Origin: Candidatus Gaiellasilicea maunaloa
GTDB lineage: Bacteria > Actinomycetota > Thermoleophilia > Gaiellales > Gaiellaceae
Length of the DNA: 63,711 nucleotides
Direction: 5' to 3'
Assembly: GCA_024330215.1 (NCBI GenBank)
Contig: JANDLU010000009.1
Coordinates: forward strand, 1 to 63,711
Both the position numbers and the translations under genes were made by a program. Shown piece by piece: positions 1,515 through 63,711 of the stretch (positions are counted from its first letter, which is position 1; each line of letters begins with the position of its first letter). The notes below the pieces were generated by a model. The model saw only the letters and a list, made by a program, of their open reading frames with translations. It did not search any database and was not told where the DNA came from.

Positions 1515-1520
1515 TAGACT
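1515..1520 (+). promoter_or_regulatory. -10 box TAGACT, leaderless promoter of aroG
   Basis: TAGACT lies 7 nt before GTG 1528, which would place the transcription start at or next to the start codon. There is no Shine-Dalgarno sequence in front of GTG 1528. The same arrangement recurs at many genes of the window. Confidence 0.5.
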
Positions 1521-1527
1521 GATCGTC

Positions 1528-2880
1528 GTGGCCGTCACCCCCGCAACCTGGACGCCTTCCTCGTGGCGCAGCCACCCGGCGCGGCACCAGCCCGAGTGGC
1601 CCGACGAGGCGCGCGCCGAGGCCGCGCTCGCGCAGCTGAAGGCGATGCCCCCGCTCGTCTTCGCCGGCGAGGCGCGCGATCTCCAGTCATCGCTCGGGGA
1701 GGTTGCCGCGGGCAGGGCGTTCCTGCTCCAGGCCGGCGACTGCGCCGAGTCCTTCCACGATTTCAGCGCCGTCTCGATCCGGGAGAAGCTGAAGATCCTG
1801 CTCCAGATGTCGGTCGTCCTGATCTACGGCTCGGCGCTCCCGCTCGTCAAGGTCGGCCGGATCGCAGGCCAGTTCGCGAAGCCGCGCTCGACCCCGACGG
1901 AGCGCGTGGGTGACACCGAGCTGCCGTCCTTCCTCGGCCATATGGTCAACGACGATGCGCCCACGGCCGAGGCGCGGGTCGCCGACCCGGAGCGGATGGT
2001 GCGCGCCTACCACCAATCGGCCGCCACGCTGAATCTCCTCCGCGCGTTCACGAAGGGCGGCTTCGCCGACCTGACCCAGGTACAGATGTGGAATCAGGAG
2101 TTCGCCGCGGGCGCGCCAGAGGGGCAGCGCTACGAGGCGATCGCCGTCGAGATCGAGCGGGCTCTCGGCTTCATGCGCGCGTGTGGGATCGACCTCGTCG
2201 ACTCGCCGCAGCTCCATCAGGTCGACGTCTGGACGAGCCACGAGGGGTTGCTTCTCGACTACGAGGAAGGTCTGACCCGGACCGACTCGCTGACCGGCGA
2301 CTGGTACGACTGCTCGGCGCACATGCTCTGGATCGGCGAGCGGACGAGGCAGGCCGATGGCGCCCACGTCGAGTTCTTCGCCGGCGTGCACAATCCCCTC
2401 GGCGTCAAGCTCGGGCCGAGCGCGACCTCCGAGGAGGCGCTCGAGCTCTGCGAGCGGCTCAACCCGGCCCGGATTCCCGGACGGCTGACGTTCATCGTCC
2501 GGATGGGGGTCGAGCGGCTCGCCGCGACCCTGCCGGGGCTGCTGCGCGCCGTCGGCGAGGCCGAGCACCCCGTCGTCTGGGCCTGCGATCCGATGCACGC
2601 AAACGTCTTCCGCACCTCGTCCGGGATCAAGACGCGCAGCTTCGACGCGATCATGGCTGAGATCGAGGCGTTCTTCGAGGTCTGCCGCGCCGGAGGCATC
2701 TGGCCCGGCGGCGTCCATCTCGAGTTCACCGGCGAGGATGTGACCGAGTGTCTCGGCGGGTCGGCGGCCGTGCTCGAGGAGGAGCTGACGGCCCGCTACG
2801 AGAGCCTCTGCGATCCCCGTCTGAACGCCCGCCAGTCGCTCGACCTCGCCTTCCGCGTGGCCGAGCTGATGCGGACCTGA
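1528..2880 (+). CDS. aroG: 3-deoxy-7-phosphoheptulonate synthase, class II (plant type)
   Basis: It condenses phosphoenolpyruvate and erythrose 4-phosphate to DAHP, the first step of the shikimate pathway. The 450-residue protein carries the class II landmarks: QAGDCAESF with the metal-binding Cys, VGRIAGQFAKPRS, SHEGLLLDYEE, HVEFFAGVHNPLGVKLG, CDPMHAN and GGVHLEFTGEDVTECLGG. GTG 1528 is preferred over an upstream in-frame TTG at 1501 because TAGACT sits 7 nt before it and the N-terminus WTPSSWRSHPARHQPEWP matches the family. tyrA begins 5 nt after the stop, so the genes are cotranscribed. Class II enzymes of actinobacteria are often feedback-inhibited by aromatic amino acids; that is family knowledge. 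Confidence 0.94.
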   Translation: MAVTPATWTPSSWRSHPARHQPEWPDEARAEAALAQLKAMPPLVFAGEARDLQSSLGEVAAGRAFLLQAGDCAESFHDFSAVSIREKLKILLQMSVVLIYGSALPLVKVGRIAGQFAKPRSTPTERVGDTELPSFLGHMVNDDAPTAEARVADPERMVRAYHQSAATLNLLRAFTKGGFADLTQVQMWNQEFAAGAPEGQRYEAIAVEIERALGFMRACGIDLVDSPQLHQVDVWTSHEGLLLDYEEGLTRTDSLTGDWYDCSAHMLWIGERTRQADGAHVEFFAGVHNPLGVKLGPSATSEEALELCERLNPARIPGRLTFIVRMGVERLAATLPGLLRAVGEAEHPVVWACDPMHANVFRTSSGIKTRSFDAIMAEIEAFFEVCRAGGIWPGGVHLEFTGEDVTECLGGSAAVLEEELTARYESLCDPRLNARQSLDLAFRVAELMRT

Positions 2881-2885
2881 GGCTC

Positions 2886-4001
2886 ATGGCGCCGGTACGC
2901 TCGCTCGCCGTCGTCGGCACGGGCTTGATCGGCGCGTCCGTCGCGCTTGCCGCACGCCGGGCCGGGGTGGAGCGGGTGCTCGGCTGGGATCCGGACGCCG
3001 CCCATCTCGCGGCTGCCGCGGAGCGAGGTGCGGTCGAGGCGGCCGCGGATCTGCCCGCCGCGCTCGCAGCTGCCGAGCTCGCGGTGGTTGCCGCGCCGGT
3101 GACGGCTCTTCCGGCGCAGGTGCGCGCCGTCCTCGACGCGAGCGGCCCCGGCTGCACGGTCACGGACGTCGGTTCCACCAAGGGTGGCGTTTGCGCCGCT
3201 GCGGCAGGCGAGGGGCGCTTCATCGGCGGCCATCCGATCTGCGGCTCGGAGGCACGCGGGCCCGAGCGCGCGACCGGCGAGCTCTTCGACGGCGCAACCT
3301 GGTTTCTCACCCCGGTCGCGGCGACCGAGCCGGAGCGCTACAAGCTCCTGCACGGCTTCGTCTCGGCGCTCGGCGCGATCCCCGTCGCAGTCGATCCGGA
3401 GGCGCACGACCGGCTCGTCGCGGTCACGAGCCATCTCCCGCATGCGCTCGCGAACGTGCTCCTGAACCAGGCTGGCGGCGCGCGAGTCGATGGGCACGAG
3501 CCGCTTGCCGGAGCCGGCGGCTCGCTCCGCGACATGACGCGGATCGCCGGAGCGAACCCGCGCATCTGGGTCGACATCTTCCTCGAGAACCGGCAGGCGC
3601 TCGCGGCCGCGCTCGCCGAGCATCGGCGCCGGATCGAGCAGGTCGAGTCTGCGCTCGCCGCCGGTGACGCCGGCTTTCTCGCGCGCTGGATCGGCGAGGC
3701 CTCAGGGCACCGCCGGCGGCTGCTCGAGACCGCCTATGACGATCCCGGCGCACTTCAGCGACTGCGCGTCCACGTGCCCGATCGGCCGGGCGTGATCGCC
3801 GGGATCGCCCAGGCGCTCGGCGCCGAGCGGATCAACATCGCCGACTTCGACCTCCAGCATCTCTCGACCGACCGCGGCGGTACGCTGACCATCCTCGTCA
3901 CCGGCGAGCAGGAGGCCGAGCGCGCCGCCGTGCTCCTCGAGACGCAGGGCTACGGCGTCGTCGTCGCTCCGGTCCTCGACGACGACGCGCTCGACGAATG
4001 A
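2886..4001 (+). CDS. tyrA: Prephenate dehydrogenase with C-terminal ACT domain
   Basis: It oxidatively decarboxylates prephenate to 4-hydroxyphenylpyruvate for tyrosine synthesis. The 371-residue protein opens with a Rossmann nucleotide motif VVGTGLIGASVAL and has the catalytic GGHPICGSEARGPE segment (about residues 112-125). A C-terminal ACT domain (about residues 295-365: LRVHVPDRPGVIAGIAQALG) probably senses an aromatic amino acid. ATG 2886 was chosen over longer in-frame starts that lie inside aroG, because the Rossmann fold then starts about 8 residues in. The stop overlaps the aroA start (ATGA at 3998-4001), so the two are translationally coupled. Confidence 0.93.
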   Translation: MAPVRSLAVVGTGLIGASVALAARRAGVERVLGWDPDAAHLAAAAERGAVEAAADLPAALAAAELAVVAAPVTALPAQVRAVLDASGPGCTVTDVGSTKGGVCAAAAGEGRFIGGHPICGSEARGPERATGELFDGATWFLTPVAATEPERYKLLHGFVSALGAIPVAVDPEAHDRLVAVTSHLPHALANVLLNQAGGARVDGHEPLAGAGGSLRDMTRIAGANPRIWVDIFLENRQALAAALAEHRRRIEQVESALAAGDAGFLARWIGEASGHRRRLLETAYDDPGALQRLRVHVPDRPGVIAGIAQALGAERINIADFDLQHLSTDRGGTLTILVTGEQEAERAAVLLETQGYGVVVAPVLDDDALDE

Positions 4002-5281
4002 AGATCAACCCCGCCACCGCGCTTCGTGGGGACATCGCTGTTCCGGGCGTCAAGGGCATCTCCCAACGTGCGGTCCTGCTCGCTGGCATCGCCGACGGAG
4101 AGAGTGAGATCCGTGGGTTCGGCCATGCGGCCGACACCGATGTCGCGATCGAAGCCGTGCGCAGCCTGGGCGTCCAGGTGGTCGAGCCTGAGGAGGGACG
4201 CCTTATCGTCGAGGGTTGCGGCCTGCGCGGGCTCGTGCCGCCCGGTGCGCCGATCGACTGTCGGAACGCGGGAACGCTGATGCGCCTGCTTTCCGGCATT
4301 CTCGCGGGTCAGGCGGGTGTGTTCCACCTTATGGGCGACGAGTCGCTCTCCAGCCGCGACCACGAGCGAATCGCGATCCCGCTGCGGTTGATGGGCGCAC
4401 GTGTCGAGACGACGAACGGGTCGGCGCCGCTCACGATCGAAGGAGCGCGCTTGCAGCCGATCCTCTACACGCCCCCGATGGCAAGCGCGCAGGTGAAGTC
4501 CTCCGTGCTGCTCGCAGGTCTCCTCGCGGAGGACGGGCCTACGACGGTCGTCGAGCCTCTGGCAACGCGGGATCACACCGAGCGGATGCTCACGTCGCTT
4601 GGCGTCCGGGTCCGCCGGCAGGGGAGCAAGATCAGTGTGTGGCCCGTCGAGGGAATCCCACCGCTCTCGGTTGAGATCACCGGCGATTTCTCGTCGGCTG
4701 CGCCGTTTCTCGCGGCGGCTGCTCTGCTTGCCGACTCGGAGCTTCGGGTTCACCATGTGAATCTGAATCCGACGCGAACGGCGTTCATCGACGTGCTGGA
4801 GCGGATGGGCGCGCGGGTCGCCGTCTTCGAACGACGCTCTGTGGGCGGGGAGCCGGTCGGGACGATCGAGGTGCGGCCCGCCCCGCTCGTCGCGACCGAC
4901 ATCAAGCCACACGAGGTTTCGAACCTGATCGACGAGCTACCGCTTTTCGCACTGCTCGCGAGCTACGCCCACGGCGACAGCGTCCTGCGCGGCGCGGCCG
5001 AGCTGCGCGCGAAGGAGACAGACCGGATCGAGGCCGTGGTCGACGGACTGCGCCGCCTCGGCGCCCACATCCGCGCGACCGAGGACGGCTTCGTCGTCCG
5101 CGGCGTGCCCACTCGGCTGCGCGGCGGCTCGATGGACTCGCGCGGCGACCACCGGATCGCCATGCTGGCGGCGATCGCCGGGCTCGTCTCCCGCGAGGGG
5201 GTCGAGGTCGAAGACGCCGAATCCGTTGCGGTCAGCTTCCCGGGCTTCTACGACCTGCTGGCCCAAGTCGTGAATCCCTAG
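3998..5281 (+). CDS. aroA: 3-phosphoshikimate 1-carboxyvinyltransferase (EPSP synthase)
   Basis: It transfers enolpyruvate from PEP to shikimate 3-phosphate, the sixth shikimate step and the target of glyphosate. Length (427 residues), the CRNAGTLMRLLSG loop, DESLSSRDHERIAIPL, KETDRIEA and DSRGDHRIAM are typical. The N-terminal substrate loop is unusual: PGVKGISQR (residues 16-24) replaces the near-universal PGxKSxSxR. The Lys and Arg are kept, but the Ser equivalent to E. coli Ser23 is Gly. The start overlaps the tyrA stop by 4 nt. Confidence 0.93.
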   Translation: MKINPATALRGDIAVPGVKGISQRAVLLAGIADGESEIRGFGHAADTDVAIEAVRSLGVQVVEPEEGRLIVEGCGLRGLVPPGAPIDCRNAGTLMRLLSGILAGQAGVFHLMGDESLSSRDHERIAIPLRLMGARVETTNGSAPLTIEGARLQPILYTPPMASAQVKSSVLLAGLLAEDGPTTVVEPLATRDHTERMLTSLGVRVRRQGSKISVWPVEGIPPLSVEITGDFSSAAPFLAAAALLADSELRVHHVNLNPTRTAFIDVLERMGARVAVFERRSVGGEPVGTIEVRPAPLVATDIKPHEVSNLIDELPLFALLASYAHGDSVLRGAAELRAKETDRIEAVVDGLRRLGAHIRATEDGFVVRGVPTRLRGGSMDSRGDHRIAMLAAIAGLVSREGVEVEDAESVAVSFPGFYDLLAQVVNP

Positions 5282-5284
5282 ACT
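5279..5284 (+). promoter_or_regulatory. -10 box TAGACT in front of the cmk leader ORF
   Basis: TAGACT spans the aroA stop codon and lies 7 nt upstream of ATG 5292, exactly as at aroG. It would give a leaderless transcript beginning with the small ORF that overlaps cmk. Confidence 0.45.
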
Positions 5285-5291
5285 CGCGCCG

Positions 5292-5339
5292 ATGCCGATC
5301 CGCTCTTCTAACCATTTCTCCGCCGGAGAAATGGCGTGA
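5292..5339 (+). CDS. 15-codon leader ORF overlapping the cmk start
   Basis: ATG 5292 opens MPIRSSNHFSAGEMA and its TGA (5337-5339) overlaps the cmk start codon as GTGA. The ORF runs through the hairpin that covers the cmk ribosome-binding site. A ribosome translating it would melt the stem and arrive at the cmk start, which suggests translational coupling. It has no Shine-Dalgarno sequence but a -10 box 7 nt upstream. No function is expected of the peptide itself. The reading is inferred from geometry. Confidence 0.4.
   Translation: MPIRSSNHFSAGEMA
5312..5334 (+). promoter_or_regulatory. Perfect hairpin covering the cmk ribosome-binding site
   Basis: CCATTTCTCC (5312-5321) and GGAGAAATGG (5325-5334) form a perfect 10-bp stem with a GCC loop. 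The right arm contains GGAG, 7 nt from the cmk GTG (5336). Folded RNA would hide the ribosome-binding site. Confidence 0.55.
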
Positions 5340-5971: not shown

Positions 5972-5981
5972 AGAGGCAGGC

Positions 5982-9128: not shown

Positions 9129-9134
9129 TAGAGT
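9129..9134 (+). promoter_or_regulatory. -10 box TAGAGT, leaderless promoter of the DUF3352 gene
   Basis: TAGAGT ends 7 nt before ATG 9142 and overlaps the end of gpsA. It matches the spacing seen at aroG and ribE. Confidence 0.4.
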
Positions 9135-12033: not shown

Positions 12034-13892
12034 ACCGGCGCGCGCTCGAGGCGATCTGCCAGACCTTCGCTCCCGGCTCCGAAGGCGTCGCGGATGCCGT
12101 CCTCGCGGCGGCCAACAAGCACCTCGGCCCGGCCGAGCGGCGTCAGCTCTCGCTCCTGCTCGGAACCTTCGGCCGCGGCTTCCCGCTTCTCTCGCCGGCG
12201 CGCCGCGAGGCCGCGCTCCGCGCGTGGTGCGACAGCCGGATCCCGCAGCGCCGCGCCGTTTTCGTGGCGCTGAAGCAGGCCGCGCTCTCGTTCGCGTACA
12301 TGCGATCCGAGTCGAGCTGGGCTCGCGAGCGCTGGGAGGCGATCGGCTATCCCGGGCCGACCGGTACGCCTGCCGATCCACCTCCCCGCCGGATCGAGCC
12401 GCTCCGGGTCGAGCGCGACCTCGAGCTCGACTGCGACGTCTGTGTCGTCGGCTCGGGTGCCGGCGGCGGGGTCGCCGCGGCCGTGCTCGCCGGCGCAGGC
12501 CTCGACGTCGTCGTCCTGGAGGCGGGCGGCTACTGGAGCGAGCGGGACTTCGACGGTGCCGAGGATCCCGGCTACGACCGCCTCTACCTCGCCGGTGCGG
12601 CCGCCGCGACGGACGACCGCGGGATCGGGCTGATCGCGGGCGCCTGCCTCGGCGGCGGTACCGTCGTCAACTACACCACCTCGTTCCGGGCGCCCGATGA
12701 CATACTCGAGGAATGGGCCGGCCACGGCTTCCCGAGCGACGAGCTGGGCGGGAGCCTCGACGCCGTCTGCGAGCGGATCGGGGTCAACACCGAGCACAAC
12801 GAGCCGTCCCGGCGCGACGAGCTGCTGGCGAGCGGGCTCCGGAGCCTGCGTTGGCACGTGGAAGAGACGCCGCGCAACGTGCTCGGCTGCGAGCAGGGGC
12901 GGCTCTGCGGATCGTGCGGCCTCGGCTGTCCGCTCGGCGCCAAGCAGTCCACGCTCGTCACCTGGCTCGTCGACGCGCAGGCCGCGGGCGCCCGAATCGT
13001 CGTCGACGCGCGCGCGCAGCGGATCCTCGTCGACGCGGGCGAGGCGCGCGGGGCGGTGGCGCGCTCGAATGGCCACGACCTGCACGTCCGCTCCCGCGCC
13101 GTCGTCGTCGCCGCAGGTGCGCTCGGGACGCCGCCGCTGCTCCTGCGCTCGGGTATCCGCAACGAGAACGTCGGCCGCTGGCTGCGCCTTCACCCCGGAA
13201 CGCCGGTGCTCGGCGTCTTCGACGAGGAGGTGCGCCCGTGGGAGGGAACGCTACAGGCGCTCTACTCCGACCAGCATCGCGATCTGGAGGACGGTTACGG
13301 CGTCAAGTACGAGACGGTGCCGGTCCTGCCGGGCTTCGCCGCGGCGGCCCTGCCGTGGCGGAGCGCCGCCCAGCACGCGGCGCTGATGGACGAGCTTGCG
13401 CAGACGACGAACGTCGGAGTGCTCCTGCGCGATCGCGGCAGCGGTCGTGTCACGCTCGGGCGCGACGGCTCGACTCGCATCCGCTACCGGCTCTCCGACG
13501 ACGATCTCGGTCGCGTCCGCACCGGCGTCGACGGCGCGGCGCAGATCCTCGAGGCGGCGGGTGCCCGGAAGATCCTTTCCGGCCACAGCCGCGTCGTCTC
13601 CTACGAGCCCGGCCGGAGGGGCGACCGGGCCGGCTTCCTCCGCGACTCCGACGCCGCCGGCTGGGGCCCAGGCCGCTGCGGCTTTTTCTCGTTCCACCCG
13701 CTGGGCTCGTGCCGGATGGGCGCCTCGCCGACGAACTCGGCGGCGAACCCGGACGGCGAGAGCTGGGAGGCGCGCAACCTCGTCGTCGCGGACGGCTCGA
13801 CCTTTCCGACCGCCTCAGGCGTCAACCCGATGGTGACGATCGAGGCGATCGCGCACCTGAACGCGGGCAAGCTGGCAGCACGGTTGAACTAG
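12030..13892 (+). CDS. GMC-family alcohol oxidoreductase (long-chain alcohol oxidase type)
   Basis: A predicted FAD-dependent oxidase or dehydrogenase of alcohols. The 620-residue protein has an N-terminal helical region (1-125), the FAD motif VCVVGSGAGGGVAAAVLA (about 137-154), ACLGGGTVVNYTTSFR, and a Cys-rich stretch CEQGRLCGSCGLGC (about 290-303) typical of the long-chain fatty alcohol oxidase branch. The C-terminal FHPLGSCRMG and ASGVNPMVTIEAIAH supply catalytic His/Asn. No signal peptide is seen. GTG 12030 overlaps a small upstream ORF. The natural substrate cannot be told from sequence. Confidence 0.82.
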   Translation: MNRRALEAICQTFAPGSEGVADAVLAAANKHLGPAERRQLSLLLGTFGRGFPLLSPARREAALRAWCDSRIPQRRAVFVALKQAALSFAYMRSESSWARERWEAIGYPGPTGTPADPPPRRIEPLRVERDLELDCDVCVVGSGAGGGVAAAVLAGAGLDVVVLEAGGYWSERDFDGAEDPGYDRLYLAGAAAATDDRGIGLIAGACLGGGTVVNYTTSFRAPDDILEEWAGHGFPSDELGGSLDAVCERIGVNTEHNEPSRRDELLASGLRSLRWHVEETPRNVLGCEQGRLCGSCGLGCPLGAKQSTLVTWLVDAQAAGARIVVDARAQRILVDAGEARGAVARSNGHDLHVRSRAVVVAAGALGTPPLLLRSGIRNENVGRWLRLHPGTPVLGVFDEEVRPWEGTLQALYSDQHRDLEDGYGVKYETVPVLPGFAAAALPWRSAAQHAALMDELAQTTNVGVLLRDRGSGRVTLGRDGSTRIRYRLSDDDLGRVRTGVDGAAQILEAAGARKILSGHSRVVSYEPGRRGDRAGFLRDSDAAGWGPGRCGFFSFHPLGSCRMGASPTNSAANPDGESWEARNLVVADGSTFPTASGVNPMVTIEAIAHLNAGKLAARLN

Positions 13893-13895
13893 GAT
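13890..13895 (+). promoter_or_regulatory. -10 box TAGGAT, leaderless promoter of lysE
   Basis: TAGGAT starts in the stop codon of the GMC gene and ends 6 nt before GTG 13902. No Shine-Dalgarno sequence precedes that start. Confidence 0.45.
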
Positions 13896-14521: not shown

Positions 14522-15202
14522 TCAGACGAGCTTGACGTACAGGCCGGCGGCAGCCTTCTCGCCGATCGCGCGCTCGGTGCCGGCGAGCGAGATCTTGAAC
14601 TGGCCCGCGGCCGGCTGCGCCGCGCGAAGCTCGACCTTCGCGCCCGGCACGAATCCCTCCTCGTAGAACCAGTGGAGGAGATCGCCGTCGTGCTCGGCGA
14701 GCCGGACGATCTCCGCCGGGTTTCCGAGACCGACGTCGGCGAGCGGGGCGAGCTCCTTGTTCTCGCGCTGCTCGAACGCCGGATCGACCGGCCAGCCGTG
14801 CGGGCAGCGATCCGGGTAGCCGAGCTTCTCCTCGATCCGCTGCACCATGTCGTCGCTGAACGTGTCGCCGAGCTCGTCCGCGTGGATGTGCGCCTCGGCC
14901 GCTGTGTAGCCCATGAAGTCGGTGAGCATTCGCTCGATCAGGCGGTGCTTGCGGACGACCCGCTCCGCTCGCTCGATCCCGGTCTCGGTCAGGATCGCCT
15001 CCTTCTGCTCTCCGCGCTCGACGAGCCCGTCGGCCTCGAGCCGCTTCAGCATCTCGCCGGCCGAGGCGCGCGAGACGCCGAGCATGTCCGCAACGCGCGA
15101 GGCGATCGCGCTCGAGCTGCCGGGGTCGGGCTTGTACTCGCCGATCGGAAAGGCGAGGAAGTAGATCGTCTCGAGGTACTCGTCGACGGAGTGGCCGGCC
15201 AC
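14522..15202 (-). CDS. DtxR/MntR-family metal-dependent transcriptional regulator
   Basis: A 226-residue repressor that likely binds operator DNA when loaded with Fe(II) or Mn(II). It starts with the winged helix (VDEYLETIY, then VADMLGVSRASAGEMLKRLE), followed by the metal/dimerisation domain (HRLIERML, HADELGDTFSDDMVQRIEEKLG, CPHGWPV) and a C-terminal FeoA/SH3-like domain. It lies 18 nt after the iron permease gene on the same strand, so it is probably the last gene of the operon it controls. The two TGTAAGG/CCTTACA palindromes at 17874 and 18917 are the obvious candidate operators. Confidence 0.88.
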   Translation of the reverse strand: MAGHSVDEYLETIYFLAFPIGEYKPDPGSSSAIASRVADMLGVSRASAGEMLKRLEADGLVERGEQKEAILTETGIERAERVVRKHRLIERMLTDFMGYTAAEAHIHADELGDTFSDDMVQRIEEKLGYPDRCPHGWPVDPAFEQRENKELAPLADVGLGNPAEIVRLAEHDGDLLHWFYEEGFVPGAKVELRAAQPAAGQFKISLAGTERAIGEKAAAGLYVKLV

Positions 15203-19016: not shown

Positions 19017-19022
19017 TAGCCT
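19017..19022 (+). promoter_or_regulatory. -10 box TAGCCT, leaderless promoter of priA
   Basis: TAGCCT ends 6 nt before GTG 19029, and no Shine-Dalgarno sequence is present. The same hexamer at the same spacing precedes fmt, smc and two MmcQ-family genes. Confidence 0.5.
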
Positions 19023-21008: not shown

Positions 21009-21014
21009 TACACT
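21009..21014 (+). promoter_or_regulatory. -10 box TACACT, leaderless promoter of def
   Basis: TACACT ends 6 nt before GTG 21021, 64-69 nt after the priA stop. There is no ribosome-binding site in front of that GTG. Confidence 0.45.
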
Positions 21015-21020
21015 CGCTCG

Positions 21021-21608
21021 GTGGCCTCTGCGGACCTCGAGCACGAGCACGATCAGGAACACGATCACGGCGACGAGGAGCGCGACGCTCAGGTCGAGGC
21101 GCGACGCCGTGTCGCGCTGGCGCAGATCCGGCAGTACCCCGATGCCGTGCTGCGGCTGCGGGCGAACACAGTCGACCGGTTCGACGAGAATCTCGCCCGG
21201 CTCGCCGACCGGATGACCGAGCTGATGCGCGACGCGTGCGGTGTCGGTCTGGCGGCGACGCAAGTCGGCGTCCTCCAACGTCTCTTTGTCTTCCAACCGC
21301 ACGGCGCGACCGAGGCAACCGTCATCGTCAACCCGGAGCTCGTCTCGCGCTCCGGCGAGACCGACCTCGCCGACGAGGGCTGCCTCTCCCTGCAGGGGGT
21401 GCACGTCCCCGTCGAGCGAAGCACCGCCGTGACCCTTCAGGGTGTCGACGTCGAGGGCACGCCGCTCCGGCTCGAGCTCGATGAGTATCCGGCCCGAGTC
21501 GTTCAGCACGAGCTCGACCACCTCGACGGCGTCCTGATGCTCGAGCGAACCGATCCCGAGTCGCGCCGCGAGGCGCTCGCCACGCTGCGGCACCGCCCTG
21601 TTCTCTAG
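21021..21608 (+). CDS. def: Peptide deformylase with His/Asp/Glu-rich N-terminal extension
   Basis: It removes the N-formyl group from nascent proteins and is paired with fmt next door. The 195-residue protein contains the three metalloenzyme motifs: GVGLAATQVG, DEGCLS and QHELDHLDG (HEXXH). The first ~20 residues are unusually rich in His, Asp and Glu (EHEHDQEHDHGDEERD) and precede the catalytic domain, possibly as a metal-binding tail. GTG 21021 is favoured by the TACACT box 6 nt upstream. An upstream in-frame GTG at 20952 would add a basic tail with no homology. Confidence 0.9.
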   Translation: MASADLEHEHDQEHDHGDEERDAQVEARRRVALAQIRQYPDAVLRLRANTVDRFDENLARLADRMTELMRDACGVGLAATQVGVLQRLFVFQPHGATEATVIVNPELVSRSGETDLADEGCLSLQGVHVPVERSTAVTLQGVDVEGTPLRLELDEYPARVVQHELDHLDGVLMLERTDPESRREALATLRHRPVL

Positions 21609-21617
21609 CCTCGGCGC

Positions 21618-22403: not shown

Positions 22404-23608
22404 TCGCACCCGCCCGGAAAGCTGCATACGAGGTGTTGCGCCGCGTCTTCGAGGACGACGCCTATGCCGATCGGGCGTTGCGCTCGGCCTCCGAGGGGCT
22501 CGAGGAGCGGGACATCGCGCTCGCGCGGCGTCTCGCCTTCGGCGCCGTCCAACGCGTGCGGACTCTCGATCACGCGGTCGAGACTCTCGGCAAGCGGCCC
22601 GTACGAAAGCTCGACCCGCCCGTCCGGGCGGCGCTGCGGCTCGGCGCCTACCAGCTCGGCTATCTCGACGGTGTCCCGCGCTACGCTGCCGTGAACGAGT
22701 CGGTCGAGCTCGTTCGCCGCGCACGGCTCGAGCGTGCGGTTCCGTTCACGAACGCCGTCCTCCGCCGCGTCGCCGACGGGATCCGGCCGCTCCTCGACGA
22801 GCTGCCGGAGGGCCCGCTGAAGCACTCCTACCCGGATTGGATCTGGGAAGTGTGGCGCCGTGACCTCGGCGAGGAAGCTGCGCTCGCTCTCATGCGCGCG
22901 CAGAACGAGGCTCGACCCGTCGTTGTGAGACACGTCCGGGGTCAGAGCCCGGACGGGGCCGAAACGGACATCCCAGGCGCCTACCGCGTCGACAGGCTGG
23001 ACAGTGACGCATTCGCGCGCGGCGAGGTCTGGCCGCAGAGCCTCGGCTCGCAGCTCGCCGGTCTCTGCGTCGGCGCGCAGCCAGGTGAGCGCGTGCTCGA
23101 CCTCTGCGCTGCGCCGGGCGGCAAGGCGACGATGCTCGCCGGCGAGATCGTCGCGGTCGAGGTGAACGAGGCGCGCGCCGGCGAGCTCGAGGCGAACGCG
23201 CGTCGGCTCGGCGCGGACAACGTCCGCGTCCTCCACGCGGACGGTCGCGTGCTCCCGGCCGACCTGACCGGCTTCGACCGTGCCCTCGTCGACGCTCCCT
23301 GCTCGGGCCTCGGGGTCCTCGCCGCGCGGCCCGATCTGCGCTGGCGCTCGCAGCCGCTCCCCGAGCTCCAGCTCGAGCTCCTGCTCGCCGCTGCGGAACG
23401 CGTCCGCCCCGGCGGCGTGGTTCTCTACTCCGTCTGCACGATCAACGCCGACGAGTCGGAGGCGGTCGTGGACGCCTCGGGCCTTCGGGTCGAGCCGATC
23501 GAGGAATGGGCCCAGTATCGCCATCCCCGCCGCCCGGAATTCCTCCAGACCTATCCGCACGTCCACGACACGAGCGGCTTCTTCATCGCCCGACTTAGGA
23601 TCCACTGA
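22400..23608 (+). CDS. rsmB: 16S rRNA (cytosine-967-C5)-methyltransferase
   Basis: It methylates C967 of 16S rRNA using SAM. The 402-residue protein has an N-terminal NusB-like domain (residues 1-130, ARKAAYEVLRRVFEDDAYAD) and a C-terminal methyltransferase domain with LDLCAAPGGKATMLA, DAPCSGLGVLAARPDLRW (motif IV Cys) and YSVCTI (motif VI catalytic Cys). TTG 22400 overlaps the fmt stop, and the stop overlaps rpe by one base. A palindromic repeat shared with the 41.5-kb intergenic region lies in frame at codons near 180 and encodes RGQSPDG. Confidence 0.93.
   Translation: MIAPARKAAYEVLRRVFEDDAYADRALRSASEGLEERDIALARRLAFGAVQRVRTLDHAVETLGKRPVRKLDPPVRAALRLGAYQLGYLDGVPRYAAVNESVELVRRARLERAVPFTNAVLRRVADGIRPLLDELPEGPLKHSYPDWIWEVWRRDLGEEAALALMRAQNEARPVVVRHVRGQSPDGAETDIPGAYRVDRLDSDAFARGEVWPQSLGSQLAGLCVGAQPGERVLDLCAAPGGKATMLAGEIVAVEVNEARAGELEANARRLGADNVRVLHADGRVLPADLTGFDRALVDAPCSGLGVLAARPDLRWRSQPLPELQLELLLAAAERVRPGGVVLYSVCTINADESEAVVDASGLRVEPIEEWAQYRHPRRPEFLQTYPHVHDTSGFFIARLRIH
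22933..22955. repeat. Palindromic repeat family B inside rsmB
   Basis: CGTCCGGG and CCCGGACG form an 8-bp stem around GTCAGAG. The same sequence occurs at 41493, 41578 and 41616. It is in frame in rsmB, between the RNA-binding and SAM-binding parts. Confidence 0.6.
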
Positions 23609-27519: not shown

Positions 27520-27525
27520 TAGCCT
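27520..27525 (+). promoter_or_regulatory. -10 box TAGCCT, leaderless promoter of ribE
   Basis: TAGCCT ends 7 nt before ATG 27533. It suggests ribE has its own promoter now that the RTX gene separates it from ribD. Confidence 0.45.
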
Positions 27526-29449: not shown

Positions 29450-29455
29450 TAGCAT
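29450..29455 (+). promoter_or_regulatory. -10 box TAGCAT, leaderless promoter of ribBA
   Basis: TAGCAT ends 7 nt before ATG 29463, separated from it by a C-tract. No ribosome-binding site is present. Confidence 0.45.
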
Positions 29456-31633: not shown

Positions 31634-31639
31634 TAAAGT
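31634..31639 (+). promoter_or_regulatory. -10 box TAAAGT, leaderless promoter of asp23
   Basis: TAAAGT ends 6 nt before GTG 31646, and there is no ribosome-binding site. Confidence 0.45.
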
Positions 31640-32004: not shown

Positions 32005-32077
32005 TCAGGTTCTGTCGGCCCGCATGGGCGGAACCTGACGTGGCCGGAGCCGGGCTTTGCCCGGCGGGAGGCCCGCC
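32005..32077 (+). promoter_or_regulatory. Structured fakA leader: three consecutive hairpins
   Basis: 32005-32038 pairs TCAGGTTC with GAACCTGA around an inner GCCC/GGGC. 32050-32064 pairs CCGGGC with GCCCGG around TTT. 32063-32077 pairs GGCGGG with CCCGCC around AGG. The last two share GG at 32063-32064 and so exclude each other in full. With the start-site hairpin at 32112-32138 this suggests an RNA-level switch. Confidence 0.45.
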
Positions 32078-32111
32078 GAGAACTCGATGATCGCGACGGA
32101 AGGAGGGGGCT

Positions 32112-32138
32112 CATGGGGGAACCATGGGTTCCCCCATG
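32112..32138 (+). promoter_or_regulatory. Perfect hairpin enclosing the fakA start codons
   Basis: CATGGGGGAACC (32112-32123) and GGTTCCCCCATG (32127-32138) form a perfect 12-bp stem with loop ATG. Both candidate fakA starts (32124 in the loop, 32136 in the right arm) are inside it. AAGGAGG at 32100-32106 stays free. Confidence 0.65.
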
Positions 32139-32145
32139 CCGGTGA
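32113..32145 (+). CDS. 10-codon leader ORF overlapping the fakA start
   Basis: ATG 32113 has an ideal AAGGAGG 6 nt upstream and reads MGEPWVPPCR, ending at TGA 32143-32145 just beyond the fakA start. The strong ribosome-binding site therefore serves this mini-ORF rather than fakA. Its translation would open the stem that encloses the fakA start codons. A Trp, three Pro and a Cys in ten codons could make it sensitive to elongation speed. Confidence 0.45.
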   Translation: MGEPWVPPCR

Positions 32146-35015: not shown

Positions 35016-35021
35016 GATACT
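35016..35021 (+). promoter_or_regulatory. -10-like box GATACT, leaderless promoter of recG
   Basis: GATACT ends 6 nt before ATG 35028. The first base deviates from TANNNT, but the spacing fits the pattern. Confidence 0.35.
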
Positions 35022-38892: not shown

Positions 38893-38898
38893 TACTCT
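38893..38898 (+). promoter_or_regulatory. -10 box TACTCT, leaderless promoter of the VOC gene
   Basis: TACTCT ends 6 nt before ATG 38905. It lies in the short divergent gap shared with vapB. Confidence 0.4.
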
Positions 38899-45020: not shown

Positions 45021-45704
45021 CTGCTCGACTCGCTTCCCGCGGAGCGGCTCGAGCACGTTTTCACGCACACCTCGTGGGCCTCGGATCGTGCGTCCTCGTA
45101 CGAGCGACTGGAGTTCCTGGGCGACAGCGTGCTCGAGCTCGCGATCGCGCGGGAGCTCTACAACCGCTACCCGGAGGCGGCCGAGGGCCGTCTCGCGAAG
45201 ATCCGCTCGCACGTCGTCTCGCGGGCGAGTTGCGCGCTCGTCGCCCGCGACCTCGATCTCGGCGCTCGCCTCGGCAAAGCCGCCGCAGCGGGCGGGATCG
45301 CCCCCGACGAGCTGGCACGGATCGTCAAGAGCAGGAACGTCACCGCGGCGCTCCTCGAGGCGGCGATCGCGGCGCTCTTCCTCGTCCACGGCTACGAGCC
45401 GATCGAGGCGGCGATCGTGGCGGCGTTCTCCGACCGGATCGACTATGCCGCGTCGACTCATGTCGACCACAAGACCGAGCTCCAGGAGGCGCTTGCGCGG
45501 TCGGGTCGCTCCGTTTCCTATTCGGTGCTCGGCGTCGAAGGGCCTCCGCACGATCGTCGTTTCTCCTGTGCCGCGCTCGTCGACGGCGAGGAGCTCGGTC
45601 GCGGGGTGGGCCGCTCGAAGAAGGACGCCGAGCAGGTCGCGGCCAGCGAGGCGCTGACGGCGCTCGCGGGCGCGGTCCAGCCTCGCCGGAACTCTGTGTG
45701 CTAA
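45021..45704 (+). CDS. rnc: Ribonuclease III, probable CTG start
   Basis: A double-stranded RNA endonuclease for rRNA and mRNA processing. The 227-residue reading has the signature YERLEFLGDSVLELA (residues 27-41) and a C-terminal dsRBD (THVDHKTELQEALARSG ... GRSKKDAEQVAASEAL). There is no in-frame ATG, GTG or TTG between the acpP stop and the signature; CTG 45021 gives MLDSLPAERLEHVFTHTSWA, which fits the family N-terminus. In the second metal motif, Ala110 stands where E. coli has Asp114 (TAALLEAAIAALF), while Glu113 is kept. Activity could be reduced or altered. Confidence 0.8.
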   Translation: MLDSLPAERLEHVFTHTSWASDRASSYERLEFLGDSVLELAIARELYNRYPEAAEGRLAKIRSHVVSRASCALVARDLDLGARLGKAAAAGGIAPDELARIVKSRNVTAALLEAAIAALFLVHGYEPIEAAIVAAFSDRIDYAASTHVDHKTELQEALARSGRSVSYSVLGVEGPPHDRRFSCAALVDGEELGRGVGRSKKDAEQVAASEALTALAGAVQPRRNSVC

Positions 45705-45707
45705 CGT
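45702..45707 (+). promoter_or_regulatory. -10 box TAACGT, leaderless promoter of the second antitoxin
   Basis: TAACGT begins with the rnc stop codon (TAA) and ends 6 nt before ATT 45714, the inferred start of the antitoxin. Confidence 0.4.
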
Positions 45708-45713
45708 CGCCAC

Positions 45714-45950
45714 ATTCGTTTACACATCACTCTGGCCGACGAGCTCGTCGCGCAGGTCGACCGCCGGGTGGGCCCGCGCCGGCGAAGCGCGTTCATCGCC
45801 CGCACGGTCGAGCAGGCGCTCGACGACGTACGACGCTGGGACGAGATCGTCGCCTCGCTCGGCGCCCTCAGCGACGCCCACGACTGGGACGCCGATTCCG
45901 GCGAGTGGGTGCGCGAGCAGAGGCGGGACGATCCGCGCCGCACCGGCTGA
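45714..45950 (+). CDS. Ribbon-helix-helix antitoxin, probable ATT start
   Basis: A 78-residue antitoxin-like protein reading MRLHITLADELVAQVDRRVG, then RSAFIARTVEQALDDVRRWD, a ribbon-helix-helix domain, followed by an acidic/Trp tail (DAHDWDADSGEWVREQ) that would bind the toxin. The first in-frame standard start (GTG 45768) would delete the beta strand and most of helix 1. ATT 45714 restores the domain and lies 6 nt after TAACGT. It is in the same frame as rnc and follows its stop directly. The PIN toxin starts 7 nt downstream. Confidence 0.68.
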   Translation: MRLHITLADELVAQVDRRVGPRRRSAFIARTVEQALDDVRRWDEIVASLGALSDAHDWDADSGEWVREQRRDDPRRTG

Positions 45951-46383: not shown

Positions 46384-46389
46384 TAGCCT
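46384..46389 (+). promoter_or_regulatory. -10 box TAGCCT, leaderless promoter of smc
   Basis: TAGCCT ends 6 nt before GTG 46396, and there is no ribosome-binding site. It gives smc its own promoter after the toxin-antitoxin insertion. Confidence 0.5.
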
Positions 46390-50384: not shown

Positions 50385-50729
50385 TTAGTCGAACTCGTAC
50401 CGAGCCGCGAGCCGCTTCGGGGCCTGGATCAGCCACGCGTCGATCAGGCGCTCACGCACCTCCGTCTCGTCGATGTGCTCGAGCCAGATCAGCAGGAACG
50501 CGGGAGAGCTCTCGAAGTGCGGCGTCAGGCGGTATGCGTCGGGGTTCGACGCGACGAGAAGCGGCCGCTCGTCGCGGTCGCAGCGCGTCCACATCGCGCC
50601 TTCGTGGCGCGTGGTCATCCCGGCGAACGTCTTGCCGCGCACCTTGAAGGCCGGCTTGCCCCACGAGGTCGTCTCCTCGATCTCGGGAAGCTCGCGCGCG
50701 AGCTCCGCTACCCGCTCCCATGTGACCAC
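50385..50729 (-). CDS. MmcQ/YjbR family protein, paralogue 1
   Basis: A 114-residue protein of the MmcQ/YjbR (CyaY-like) fold: WERVAELARELPEIEETTSWGKPAFKVRGKTFAGM, CDRDERPLLVASNPDAYRLTPHF, AFLLIWLEHIDETEVRERLIDAWLIQAPKRLAARYE. Family members are small proteins sometimes labelled DNA-binding, and their role is unknown. GTG 50729 has TAGCCT 6 nt upstream on the minus strand. It is one of three copies within 2.4 kb; the second is a pseudogene and the third is at 52373-52708. Confidence 0.83.
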   Translation of the reverse strand: MVTWERVAELARELPEIEETTSWGKPAFKVRGKTFAGMTTRHEGAMWTRCDRDERPLLVASNPDAYRLTPHFESSPAFLLIWLEHIDETEVRERLIDAWLIQAPKRLAARYEFD

Positions 50730-51202: not shown

Positions 51203-51538
51203 CGACGTCGTGCTGAGCCGCGAGCCTCTTCGGCGCCTGGATCGACCAGGCGTCGATCAGCCGCTCGCGCATCCGCCTCGTTGATGTGCTCGAGCCAGAT
51301 CAGGAGGTAGGCGGGCGAGCTCTCGAGTGCGGCGTCAGCCGGTACGCGTCGGGAGTCGACGCGACGAGGAGCGGACGCTCGTCCCGGTCGCAGCGCGTCC
51401 ACATCGCGCCCTCGTGTCGCGTGGTCAGGCCCGCGAACGTCTTGCCGGCCACCTTGAAGACGGTTTTCCCCACGAGGTCGTCTCCTCGACCTCCGGCAAC
51501 TCGCGCGCGAGCTCGGCGACTAGCTCAAACGTGACCAC
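51203..51538 (-). pseudogene. MmcQ/YjbR family paralogue 2, decayed
   Basis: The minus strand encodes, across three frames, a copy very like the gene at 50385-50729: VVTFELVAELARELPEVEETTSWGK, FKVAGKTFAGLTTRHEGAMWTRCDRDERPLLVAS, AYLLIWLEHINEAD, RLIDAWSIQAPKRLAAQHD. Single-base losses near 51460 and 51326, a 2-nt loss near 51270 and a lost stop codon disrupt it. The GTG start and TAACCT box 6 nt upstream survive. Close similarity to copy 1 indicates recent duplication followed by decay, unless the assembly is faulty here. Confidence 0.72.
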
Positions 51539-52376
51539 CACTGGAGGTTACTCCCGCGGAGTCGCTCAGGACTCGCCCGTCACGGGCGGCCAGCTCGGTG
51601 AACGCCTCAACCGCGAGCTCGACGCGGTCGCTGCAGCCGAGCCGGCCGCATTCGCACGCGAACGGATACGACGTCAGCTCTCGCGGCCCTTCGCCCGAGG
51701 CGAGCCAGAGGCGAAGCTGGGTCGCCGTCGCGTCGTTCTCCCAACGCCTGACCGCGGCTCGCTCCGCTTCGCCGAGAAGAGGATGCTCCGGGATCTGCGC
51801 CGCCACGATCTCGGCGACGGCGTCCGCGTCTCCTGCCGGCTCGATATCGATGACTCTATCCCCGCGCAGTGCGGCTGCCGCGCGGATCCGCTCGGCCAGA
51901 AGCGTGTCGCGCGCGAGCCGGTTCTCCCTGGCGCGCTCGGGATCAGAAACCGGAAGCGTGAACGGACGCGTGCCGATCGCGCGCCGCCTGAACTCGGCCG
52001 TCGAGAAGAGGAAGACGGCAGCGGCGCTCGCGGGCAGCAGCTCGGGCAGGACTTGCGGGCCCTCGACGAGCACGGGCGGTTGAGCCGGAAGCTTTGCCAG
52101 GTCTTCCTCCACCAGCGCGAGGCGCTCGCGCGAGATCTCGACGAACCAGTCGACCATCTGCGCAGGCTCCGCGTCCACCCAGCGCTCGTCGAGCGAGCGT
52201 GCGAGAAACCGCTCTTGCGCCGGAGTGCGCCGAGCGGCATGCACCCACGTGAAGCTGTCGATGTGGTATGCGCGAACGCCAAGGCGGCCGGCCAAGATTC
52301 GGGTAACGGTCGACTTGCCCGCGCCGGTTCCGCCGCCGATCCAGAGCGCCCGCGGCCCACCGCCGGCCCGCATCAT
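51525..52376 (-). CDS. P-loop NTPase with C-terminal Cys-rich module
   Basis: A 283-residue protein: Walker A LWIGGGTGAGKSTVTRILAGRLG at residues ~9-31, then YHIDSFTW, VDWFVEISRERLALVEEDL and VLVEGPQVLPELLP, in the style of a small-molecule kinase. The C-terminal 45 residues (FACECGRLGCSDRVELAVEAF) form a short Cys cluster common at protein ends in actinobacteria, perhaps zinc-binding. ATG 52376 overlaps the stop of the upstream MmcQ copy (ATGA), so the two are coupled. The substrate is unknown. Confidence 0.7.
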   Translation of the reverse strand: MMRAGGGPRALWIGGGTGAGKSTVTRILAGRLGVRAYHIDSFTWVHAARRTPAQERFLARSLDERWVDAEPAQMVDWFVEISRERLALVEEDLAKLPAQPPVLVEGPQVLPELLPASAAAVFLFSTAEFRRRAIGTRPFTLPVSDPERARENRLARDTLLAERIRAAAALRGDRVIDIEPAGDADAVAEIVAAQIPEHPLLGEAERAAVRRWENDATATQLRLWLASGEGPRELTSYPFACECGRLGCSDRVELAVEAFTELAARDGRVLSDSAGVTSSGGHV

Positions 52377-52708
52377 CCGAGCGTCGAGGCAAGCTTCGGC
52401 GGCGCAGCGAGCAGCCACGCGTCCTCGATCCGCTCGCGCAGCTCGGCCCGCCGGACCTGCTCGAGGTGAATCAGCAGCATCGGATAGCCCTGATAGTGGG
52501 ACGTGACGAAGTACGCTGCCGGGTTCGACTCGACGAGCAGCGGTCGCTCGTCCGGATCAACGTTCACCACCAGCTTGCCGTGCTCGTGCGGACTCTCCCA
52601 CGCGAACGTCTTCCTGCGCACCTTGAAGGCGAGCTTGCCGTAGGACGTGCTCTCCTCCGTCTCCGGCAGTGCGAGTGCCAGCGCGCGGACGTCCTCCCAG
52701 GTGGCCAC
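52373..52708 (-). CDS. MmcQ/YjbR family protein, paralogue 3
   Basis: A 111-residue MmcQ/YjbR-fold protein: TWEDVRALALALPETEESTSYGKLAFKV, NVDPDERPLLVESNPAAYFVTSHY, LLIHLEQVRRAELRERIEDAWLLAAPPKLAS. It is more diverged than copies 1 and 2. GTG 52708 lies 6 nt from TAGCCT. The gene is divergent from ftsY with only 22 bp between start codons, and the two -10 boxes overlap. The P-loop NTPase gene follows with an ATGA overlap. Confidence 0.82.
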   Translation of the reverse strand: MATWEDVRALALALPETEESTSYGKLAFKVRRKTFAWESPHEHGKLVVNVDPDERPLLVESNPAAYFVTSHYQGYPMLLIHLEQVRRAELRERIEDAWLLAAPPKLASTLG

Positions 52709-52714
52709 AAGCGA

Positions 52715-52724
52715 AGGCTAACCT
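52715..52724. promoter_or_regulatory. Overlapping divergent -10 boxes of ftsY and MmcQ paralogue 3
   Basis: AGGCTAACCT holds TAACCT on the plus strand (52719-52724, 6 nt before ftsY GTG 52731) and TAGCCT on the minus strand (52720-52715, 6 nt before GTG 52708). The two boxes share T52719 and A52720, so both promoters cannot be occupied at once. Confidence 0.55.
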
Positions 52725-52730
52725 CCCGCG

Positions 52731-53681
52731 GTGTCCAGATCGTGGTCAGAGCTGCTCGGCGACGGCACGGGTCCCGTCGAGACCGAGGCGGAGCGGGCGG
52801 GATTCTTCGGCCGGCTGCGGGACTCGCTCGGCAAGAGCCGCCGTGCGCTCACCGGCGAGCTCGCGGCCGCGGCGTTCGATCCAGGCAACGAGGAGGACTG
52901 GGAGCGGCTCGAGGAGGCGCTGATCCGCGGCGATGTAGGGGTGCCCGCGACTGCCGAGCTCGTCCGTCGACTCGAGGCTCGCGGTGACCTCGGCGATCTC
53001 GGCGAGGCGCTTGCCGAGGAGATCGCGGACATGCTCGGCGAGCCGGCGACGCTGAACCTCGAGGCGAAGCCGAGCGTGATCCTCGTCGTCGGCGTCAACG
53101 GCACCGGCAAGACGACGACGATCGGCAAGCTGGCGCAGAAGCTGCGCGAGCACGACCGCTCGGTGCTGCTCGGCGCCGCGGACACCTTCCGCGCCGCCGC
53201 CGAGGAGCAGCTCGAGATCTGGGCGCAGCGCGCGAAGGCGGACTTCGTCGGAGCCGCGCATGGGGCGGACCCGGCGGCGGTCGCCTACGACGCCGTCGAG
53301 GCCGCCCGCGCCCGCGGCCACGATGTCGCGATCGTGGACACTGCTGGCCGCCTGCACACGCAGTCGAACCTGATGGAGGAGCTCGCGAAGGTCCGCCGCG
53401 TGATCGAGACCCGCCTCGACGGCGCCCCGCACGAGACGCTACTCGTCGTCGACGCGACCACCGGCCAGAACGGGCTCCAGCAGGCACGGCTCTTCGGCGA
53501 GGCCGCGCAGGTCACGGGAGTCGCCCTGACGAAGCTCGACGGCTCGGCGAAGGGCGGAATCGCGGTCGCGATCGCCTACGAGCTCGGCCTCCCGGTGAAG
53601 CTGATCGGCGTCGGCGAGGGCCTCGACGATCTGCGCCCGTTCGACGCGCACGACTTCGCCCGCGCTCTCGTCTCGGGCTGA
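52731..53681 (+). CDS. ftsY: Signal recognition particle receptor FtsY
   Basis: The GTPase that docks SRP-bound ribosomes at the membrane. The 316-residue protein lacks the long acidic A domain of E. coli FtsY. It has an N domain ([21 protein letters not shown]), G1 VVGVNGTGKTTTIGKLA, DTFRAAAEEQLEIWAQ, DTAGRLHTQSNLMEEL, TKLDGSAKGG and GVGEGLDDLRPFD. All GTPase motifs are intact. smc-ftsY is a standard actinobacterial pairing, split here by a ~2.9-kb island of MmcQ and P-loop genes. Confidence 0.95.
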   Translation: MSRSWSELLGDGTGPVETEAERAGFFGRLRDSLGKSRRALTGELAAAAFDPGNEEDWERLEEALIRGDVGVPATAELVRRLEARGDLGDLGEALAEEIADMLGEPATLNLEAKPSVILVVGVNGTGKTTTIGKLAQKLREHDRSVLLGAADTFRAAAEEQLEIWAQRAKADFVGAAHGADPAAVAYDAVEAARARGHDVAIVDTAGRLHTQSNLMEELAKVRRVIETRLDGAPHETLLVVDATTGQNGLQQARLFGEAAQVTGVALTKLDGSAKGGIAVAIAYELGLPVKLIGVGEGLDDLRPFDAHDFARALVSG

Positions 53682-58011: not shown

Positions 58012-58053
58012 ACGAGTGACTGCGGGGGCGCCGGCGAGGGCGCCCCCGCACTC

Positions 58054-59130: not shown

Positions 59131-59357
59131 GCGAGCTCTCCTCGAGCGAAGGGATAGGTGCGACGGGGGCACGCTGCTGCGCGCTGCGCCGTGGCTCGAG
59201 GAGCCGCCGAGGGTGTGACCGACGGCGCCTAGAGCCGCGGGACTCTGGAGGCGGTGGAAGCAAGCTCGTTCATCTGTCGCACCTCCTAGGTCTCATGGCT
59301 CGGCTCGTCGGGACGTCTCGAAGTATGCCTGCGGGCGGTAAGGAAGTCGAGAGCGGG

Positions 59358-59386
59358 TTGGCAGCCGCCGGAAGAGGGGCTACAGT
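59358..59386 (+). promoter_or_regulatory. Sigma70-type promoter of the secreted nuclease gene
   Basis: TTGGCA (59358-59363) and TACAGT (59381-59386) are separated by exactly 17 bp. Transcription would start near 59393, leaving a ~60-nt leader with AGGGAGG before GTG 59456, in contrast to the leaderless genes. The rest of the 59131-59455 gap shows no gene. Confidence 0.55.
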
Positions 59387-59455
59387 CTCCGCGGACGTCG
59401 GCCGAACGAGCCGTGTCCGTTCAGGGGAGCCGGTCACAATCAGGGAGGATTTTTC

Positions 59456-61843: not shown

Positions 61844-61923
61844 TTCCGACCTCTGGCCGGCGTCGCTTCTGCGGCGCCGGCCCGTGTCATTCACCTGTGA
61901 CATTCAATCTGGGAGACGAAAAG

Positions 61924-63606: not shown

Positions 63607-63615
63607 CAGCGGTTG

Positions 63616-63643
63616 GACGGGGGCGGCTTCGGCCGCCCCCGTC
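63616..63643 (+). terminator. Terminator hairpin after the 5'-nucleotidase gene
   Basis: GACGGGGGCGGC (63616-63627) and GCCGCCCCCGTC (63632-63643) form a perfect 12-bp stem with a TTCG tetraloop, followed by GCTTCTAT. Confidence 0.75.
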
Positions 63644-63662
63644 GCTTCTATAGCGTCGGGTC

Positions 63663-63711
63663 ATGTCCGGTCGTCTCCGCGACGGCGTCCTCGCCGCGCT
63701 TCCGCTGGCTC
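63663..63711 (+). CDS. Start of an unidentified gene (cut by window edge)
   Basis: ATG 63663 opens MSGRLRDGVLAALPLA and runs off the edge. TAGCGT (63651-63656) ends exactly 6 nt upstream, matching the leaderless promoter pattern, which is the main support. Too little is visible to name it. Confidence 0.45.
   Translation, partial: MSGRLRDGVLAALPLA

Follow-up and report, generated by a model that had tools for sequence, protein, structure and literature searches.

Zheng et al. (2011, PMC3160421) predicted leaderless genes preceded by a TAnnnT element in 86 out of 89 genomes of Actinobacteria. In Mycobacterium tuberculosis, leaderless transcripts account for 26% of the genes to which a primary start site was assigned (Cortes et al. 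2013, PMC3898074), and an ATG or GTG codon (RTG) at the start site was reported to be necessary and sufficient, CTG and TTG being ineffective (Shell et al. 2015, PMC4633059). TANNNT is found about 6-7 bp before the open reading frame (ORF) of nearly one third of Deinococcus radiodurans genes (Zhong et al. 2025, PMC12340547), and leaderless transcription has been predicted in 21.6% of bacterial species (PMC9581028). For Thermoleophilia, a literature search on the term "leaderless" surfaced only work on anti-Shine-Dalgarno types. Here we describe TANNNT hexamers that end 6 or 7 nt before start codons in a stretch of 63,711 nucleotides from Candidatus Gaiellasilicea maunaloa (Actinomycetota; Thermoleophilia; Gaiellales; Gaiellaceae), contig JANDLU010000009.1 (C179), which we call the window. 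The sequence indicates leaderless initiation in this actinobacterial lineage; very probably, such genes are transcribed without a leader from a sigma-70-type -10 element, lack a recognisable -35 element, and make up some 15-30% of the genes in the genome.

With the TA-led genes of Actinobacteria and Deinococcus-Thermus, the genes described here share TAnnnT about 10 bp upstream, a high-GC host and coexistence with genes led by a Shine-Dalgarno (SD) sequence. That system covers around 20% of genes in Actinobacteria, and the mechanism proposed here does not differ from it; only the host does (PMC3160421). Mycobacterium likewise has a TANNNT -10 element, ATG or GTG at the 5' end and a preferred C at -1, and differs in the kind of support, which comes from RNA-seq, ribosome profiling and reporters there and from sequence alone here (PMC3898074, PMC4633059). 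Deinococcus shares the place of the motif, and start-codon corrections were suggested there too; it belongs to another phylum, and its commonest hexamer is TACACT, whereas TAGCCT and TAGACT are the commonest forms in the present genome (PMC12340547).

The strict motif was defined as TANNNT ending 6 nt (N6) or 7 nt (N7) before ATG or GTG. Counts were made in a sample of 668 kb (17% of the genome, window included; 6.6 kb are N) of an assembly that totals 3.85 Mb in 200 contigs and is 97.32% complete and 4.97% contaminated. Genes were called using our own codon-usage caller, in which starts are chosen without any motif ("motif-blind starts"). TANNNT stood at N6 before 46 of 595 such starts and at N7 before 20, with chance at about 1.7 per spacing; N8, N9 and N10 gave 6, 11 and 7, and the remaining spacings up to 49 gave 0-5. 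When 64 XYNNNZ patterns were scored at 20 spacings (594 motif-blind starts), TANNNT at N6 ranked first (46 vs 1.71, z 29.8) and TANNNT at N7 second (20, z 12.3). The positional signal is real and is the strongest upstream pattern in the sample. Codons following every TANNNT were also counted, independently of gene calls. At N6 and N7 combined, ATG (57 vs 15.4) and GTG (83 vs 30.3) were the top two of 64 codons in the sample, and TTG (17/15.7), CTG (30/33.6) and ATT (6/7.2) showed no peak. Across the whole genome, TANNNT-ATG occurs 442 times at N6/7 vs 106 times at N12/13. TANNNT-RTG counts in the window were 11 on the plus strand and 4 on the minus strand at N6, and 6 and 2 at N7; the other spacings between 3 and 13 gave 0-3 apiece, and on the minus strand N7 does not exceed the adjacent spacings.

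The starts concerned are given below with their hexamers and spacings, together with some comparisons to another genome of the same genus (G001). Apart from the truncated last gene, names in the window were checked by profile search (Pfam, TIGRFAM).

1528-2880, plus strand: aroG, class II DAHP synthase; TAGACT 1515-1520, N7, GTG 1528 (TIGR01358 over cut-off)
5279..5339, plus strand: 15-codon leader ORF before cmk (cmk by PF02224); TAGACT 5279-5284, N7, ATG 5292
9142, plus strand: DUF3352 gene; TAGAGT 9129-9134, N7, ATG 9142 (identical hexamer and start in G001; GAGG at gap 3)
13902, plus strand: lysE-type gene; TAGGAT 13890-13895, N6, GTG 13902 (identical hexamer and start in G001)
14522-15202, minus strand: iron-dependent-repressor-type gene; TAGAGT 15214-15209, N6, GTG 15202
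19029, plus strand: priA; TAGCCT 19017-19022, N6, GTG 19029 (TIGR00595 over cut-off)
21021, plus strand: def; TACACT 21009-21014, N6, GTG 21021 (profile search)
21618, plus strand: fmt; TAGCCT 21606-21611, N6, ATG 21618 (PF00551)
23608, plus strand: rpe; TAGGAT 23596-23601, N6, ATG 23608 (PF00834)
27533, plus strand: ribE; TAGCCT 27520-27525, N7, ATG 27533 (profile search)
29463, plus strand: ribBA; TAGCAT 29450-29455, N7, ATG 29463 (profile search)
31646, plus strand: asp23-family gene; TAAAGT 31634-31639, N6, GTG 31646 (same in G001; profile search)
35028, plus strand: recG; GATACT 35016-35021, not TANNNT, N6, ATG 35028 (profile search)
38905, plus strand: glyoxalase/VOC gene; TACTCT 38893-38898, N6, ATG 38905 (profile search)
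45702..45716, plus strand: start of a 78-codon frame; TAACGT 45702-45707, N6, ATT 45714 (no Pfam match)
46396, plus strand: smc; TAGCCT 46384-46389, N6, GTG 46396 (same in G001; TIGR02168 over cut-off)
50385-50729, minus strand: YjbR (MmcQ) family gene; TAGCCT 50741-50736, N6, GTG 50729 (profile search)
51425..51550, minus strand: 37-codon frame; TAACCT 51550-51545, N6, GTG 51538 (no Pfam match as translated)
52706..52733, plus-strand arm of a shared divergent promoter: ftsY; TAACCT 52719-52724, N6, GTG 52731 (profile search)
52706..52733, minus-strand arm of the same promoter: YjbR-family gene; TAGCCT 52720-52715, N6, GTG 52708 (profile search)
63663, plus strand: partial gene, truncated by the end of the window after 16 open codons; TAGCGT 63651-63656, N6, ATG 63663 (motif and frame)

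A preliminary description of the window had listed 19 such starts. Seventeen combine an exact TANNNT with N6 or N7 and ATG or GTG, recG (GATACT) and the 78-codon frame, named an antitoxin there, do not (ATT), and two genes missing from that list, rpe (23608) and the iron-repressor-type gene (15202, minus strand), belong on it. As stated there, six of the listed starts carry TAGCCT. The names given were confirmed, except for the "antitoxin" and the 37-codon frame, each without a Pfam match; the latter had been counted as the third of three MmcQ-family copies, of which the other two do fall in the YjbR family. Its statement that these starts lack an SD sequence is nearly right, with exceptions in the DUF3352 gene (GAGG 3 nt before ATG) and in lysE and rpe, whose TAGGAT hexamers place an AGGA about as far from the start as an SD sequence would be. 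The spacing rule can, as proposed there, help to fix start codons, and TANNNT-N6/N7-RTG is a practical rule for this purpose in such genomes. As for recG, GANNNT at N6 is also enriched at motif-blind starts of the genome sample (25 vs 7.4 expected). The 78-codon frame has a counterpart in G001 that is 91% identical (L162, about 17868), in which TAACTT is followed by ATG at the corresponding position; ATT at 45714 may be a leaderless start of near-cognate type, or may reflect drift of the gene or a fault in the assembly. The TGA of the leader ORF (5292-5339) overlaps the GTG of cmk (5336) as GTGA, and GGAG precedes cmk; translational coupling between the two is possible.

What we observe here is the motif, its spacing, its codon specificity and its conservation within the genus. 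The mechanism that we propose is that housekeeping sigma-70-type RNA polymerase would recognise the -10 hexamer as T-12 A-11 N N N T-7 and begin RNA synthesis on the purine of ATG or GTG, 7 nt (N6) or 8 nt (N7) downstream of the hexamer, with a C usually directly before the start purine in the N7 case. The mRNA would start with its own start codon, and ribosomes would initiate on the 5'-terminal RTG without SD contact; SD-led initiation would coexist and serve more genes. At N6, the hexamer occupies -12 to -7 if transcription begins on the R of RTG, which is the standard sigma-70 distance. C stands at -1 in 15 of the 20 N7 starts, and C or T in 29 of the 46 N6 starts. It is this distance from the -10 element to the start and, in N7 cases, the C at -1 that place the predicted transcription start at the RTG, and the C matches the -1 cytosine of mycobacteria (PMC4633059).

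The hexamer could be a -10 element from which transcription starts a few nucleotides upstream of the codon, leaving a leader of 1-4 nt. In favor of such a leader, the counts at N8, N9 and N10 (6, 11 and 7 of 595) are above the background of about 1.7, and a three-class mixture model of 597 genes (30% -10-led, 51% SD-led, 19% neither) places about a quarter of the -10 class at spacings 8-10. The same model assigns about 73% of that class to spacings 6 and 7, however, and the C at -1 followed by a purine at +1 in N7 cases favors a start on the codon itself, as does the restriction to ATG and GTG, which is expected of a 5'-terminal codon. We consider a short leader improbable as an account of the motif, at roughly one chance in several. 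As an observation apart, the small shoulder at spacings 8-10 (24 cases) suggests a group of genes whose leaders measure 2-4 nt.

Motif genes also differ from the rest in translation signals and position. SD-like tetramers precede 8 of 66 motif genes vs 213 of 528 others (p 2.7e-6), and 46 of 65 motif genes head their unit (divergent neighbour or gap >50 nt) vs 271 of 519 others (p 0.005). GGAG at gap 5 upstream of starts occurs 33 times in the sample vs 3.9 expected, and SD initiation is therefore also in use. Upstream of the hexamer, TTGM/GTTG was found in 4 of 66 cases vs 3 of 66 at an offset control position, with no -35 consensus. The T and A bases might alternatively act in translation, either as a weak SD variant such as AGGA or as an A/U-rich ribosome enhancer, and the enrichment of AGGA and GGAG upstream of starts, together with the AGGA inside TAGGAT, would fit such a role. 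Against it, the bases constrained in the mixture-model matrix are T1, A2 and T6, the rpe hexamers of three family genomes (TAAGAT, TAAGAT and TAGGGT) keep T-A-T and lose AGGA, and motif genes are poor in SD motifs and tend to head their unit, so that we regard a translation signal as very improbable. Loss of the anti-SD was another candidate, and it was rejected: the 16S locus of a genome of the same family (G031) shows an ordinary anti-SD, GGATCACCTCC. At the 16S locus of G002, from another genus of the family, neither strand of the sequence examined contained the anti-SD string, and the present genome gave no 16S match.

Returning to leaderless initiation from a -10 element, conservation was examined by comparing 16 window motif genes with G001. 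Nine starts could be aligned, and TANNNT is kept in 9/9; of the remaining seven, five have no G001 DNA in the fetched sequence and two are cut by contig ends. One of the nine aligns via a paralogue, which leaves eight independent starts. In these, identity is 48/48 in the hexamer (T, A and T by case selection, the middle bases being free of it), 42/49 in the spacer and 144/200 from -45 to -20, a contrast that is weak in 6/8 cases because the upstream stretch lies inside a called gene. In the two intergenic cases, asp23 and smc, identity is 30/50 from -45 to -20 and 12/12 in both hexamer and spacer. At fmt, the TAGCCT-spacer-ATG block is a conserved island in G001, where the surrounding DNA hardly aligns. 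Among other genera of the family (G002, G003 and G004), TANNNT at N6/N7 precedes ribE in all three, and precedes rpe in these and in G001. Some genes without a motif here carry one in relatives (e.g. 33744, 40942). These alignments to relatives allowed starts up to 20 codons away, and a few matches may be due to chance. The trait is stable, and its assignment to genes turns over beyond the genus.

Further results weigh against leaderless initiation or lower the share of genes that it could serve. The transcription start, the use of sigma-70 and the loading of ribosomes are predictions from sequence. SD depletion is partly geometric, the motif occupying the SD position, and TAGGAT brings an AGGA of its own to that place. 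The best k-mer in a scan for a -35 element was GAA 17 nt upstream (5/66 vs 0.55), among thousands of tests, and smc, ftsY and asp23 have no motif in the deeper relatives aligned. The strict motif is present at only 66/595 motif-blind starts (11%), and within the sample ATG and GTG together show a raw excess that amounts to about 92 in 595 genes (15%). In the mixture model, shuffling letters within upstream regions lowered the -10 class from 0.30 to 0.025, whereas dealing upstream regions randomly among candidate starts still gave 15%, because real promoters remain in the pool; owing to this second control, 30% is not a clean count. When the whole-genome ATG excess of 336 is scaled by the sample GTG:ATG excess of 52.7:39.4, the extrapolation gives ~785 genes, or about 23% when the gene total is estimated at 3,460. 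Estimates of the leaderless share thus run from 11% to 30% by method, and about 15-30% of genes is the figure that goes with the explanation preferred here.

Leaderless genes are a large minority, not the norm. The preliminary description had called them the norm; the strict motif is present in 16/58 window genes and 50/536 sampled genes elsewhere (Fisher p 1.9e-4), and SD-led genes form the larger class of the mixture model. An inflated rate was seen at first because the window, which was picked after the fact, is unusually rich (mixture-model means 38%, vs 29% for the rest). Some small contigs are also rich (C10 2/7, C170 5/19, C199 4/12), and C1 (11/137) and C2 (8/125) are poor. Contamination (4.97%) is one possible reason for the richness of the window.

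In order to place the genome within its phylum, TANNNT-ATG at N6/7 vs N12/13 was counted in 119 evenly drawn genomes of Actinomycetota, each at least 90% complete. The z value exceeded 5 in 53/53 genomes with <60 control hits per Mb, a cut-off picked after the counts were seen, and in 8/66 others; it was below 2 in 32/119. In excess per Mb the present genome ranked 15th of 119, and in ratio it ranked 20th. The trait is real and conserved within the genus, but it is ordinary for the phylum. The survey rejects a tight rule special to the lineage, and the preliminary suspicion of an undescribed rule fails as to its kind, since the same TAnnnT rule is in print for Actinobacteria and Deinococcus-Thermus. 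The core of that description fares better: its positional count of TANNNT at N6-N7, extended to the genome, gave a clear peak over controls, and leaderless expression from a start-adjacent -10 element is well supported at the sequence level by this peak, the RTG specificity, SD depletion and within-genus conservation. Chance or base composition near starts, in a pattern noticed post hoc, could draw on the unusual richness of the window (16/58 vs 50/536), but the controls on spacing and codons (N6/N7 peaks for ATG and GTG only in the sample, and for ATG genome-wide) already refute it. The collapse of the -10 class from 0.30 to 0.025 on shuffling, the motif kept in 9/9 testable G001 starts and the phylum survey speak against it as well, and we give it next to no credence. 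Cleaner peaks were seen elsewhere in the phylum (G064, 94 vs 3, and G101, 83 vs 8, at N12/13), and a genome of the same order (G026) gave 284 vs 29 for the reversed pattern; these three may suit start-site work better.

Two of the motif-bearing genes are arranged divergently. ftsY (GTG 52731) and the YjbR-family gene (GTG 52708) diverge from AGGCTAACCT; their hexamers overlap, with TA at 52719-52720 common to both, and 22 nt lie between the start codons. G001 keeps this arrangement. The idea of a shared promoter is close to what is known, as 18 and 23 bp are known start-site spacings of bidirectional promoters (PMC12825309). Such symmetric -10 promoters have divergent starts 18 or 23 bp apart and overlapping -10 elements, as here, and the difference is that the predicted start sites are here the start codons themselves, with 17-24 nt between codons (PMC12825309, PMC10268837). 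The csoR-cueA divergon of Bradyrhizobium also has overlapping divergent -10 elements and, by 5' RACE, a leaderless csoR mRNA, but only that arm is leaderless, cueA having a 42-nt leader, and the phylum is another (PMC5057107). In M. tuberculosis, one divergent pair, prpD and its regulator, was reported with both genes leaderless (PMC3898074), and such pairs were not found in the consulted portions of a study on Pyrococcus.

We tentatively put forward, with more doubt than conviction, that divergent pairs of this clade recurrently share a symmetric -10 core from which the two mRNAs would be made, each beginning at the start codon of its gene (doubly leaderless). The present genome has 23 sites in all, 12 with the 23-bp geometry and 11 with the 18-bp geometry (TANNNTA). 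Coding-like ORFs (>=60 codons) flank 7/12 and 9/11 of these on both sides (16/23 together), and the same holds for 16/20 fetched 23-bp sites in G040 and 8/12 fetched 18-bp sites in G001, G026 and G031. Over 41 genomes, the 23-bp pattern gave 260 sites vs 54 for a reversed-pattern control, or 520 directed half-sites vs 192 with CAY moved to N9/10, and the 18-bp pattern gave 176 sites vs 70 for the reversed control. In G000, the N9/10 control shows a forward/reverse imbalance of 0/8. Of the control sites, 8/18 also have coding-like ORFs on both sides, so the control is not neutral; with 23/32 for the pooled 23-bp sites of the present genome and G040, the contrast has p 0.07. Special selection of shared -10 pairs is, given these control sites, not supported.

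Motif pairs were also tallied over 1.83 Mb, comprising the genome sample, window-syntenic relatives and 80 other loci. Nine fell on the two symmetric offsets vs 12 on 150 others; these include locus L033 twice, once per symmetric offset, as well as the orthologue in G001 of the window site, leaving fewer independent cases. Two-base sharing alone predicts about 6.7 pairs on the symmetric offsets, and base sharing or symmetry alone may suffice for the number of pairs. If the shared-core idea were true, the 17-24 nt between start codons would hold a whole core promoter, and the two genes would compete for one polymerase site. The shared -10 pairs would offer a compact natural test of two leaderless genes on one such site.

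Elsewhere in the window, a stretch of ~100 bp with inverted repeats (about 32035-32145) precedes a fatty-acid-kinase-like gene. It had no Rfam match at the gathering threshold. The stretch recurs at about 77-84% identity in at least 8 further places in the genome and in several places in family members.

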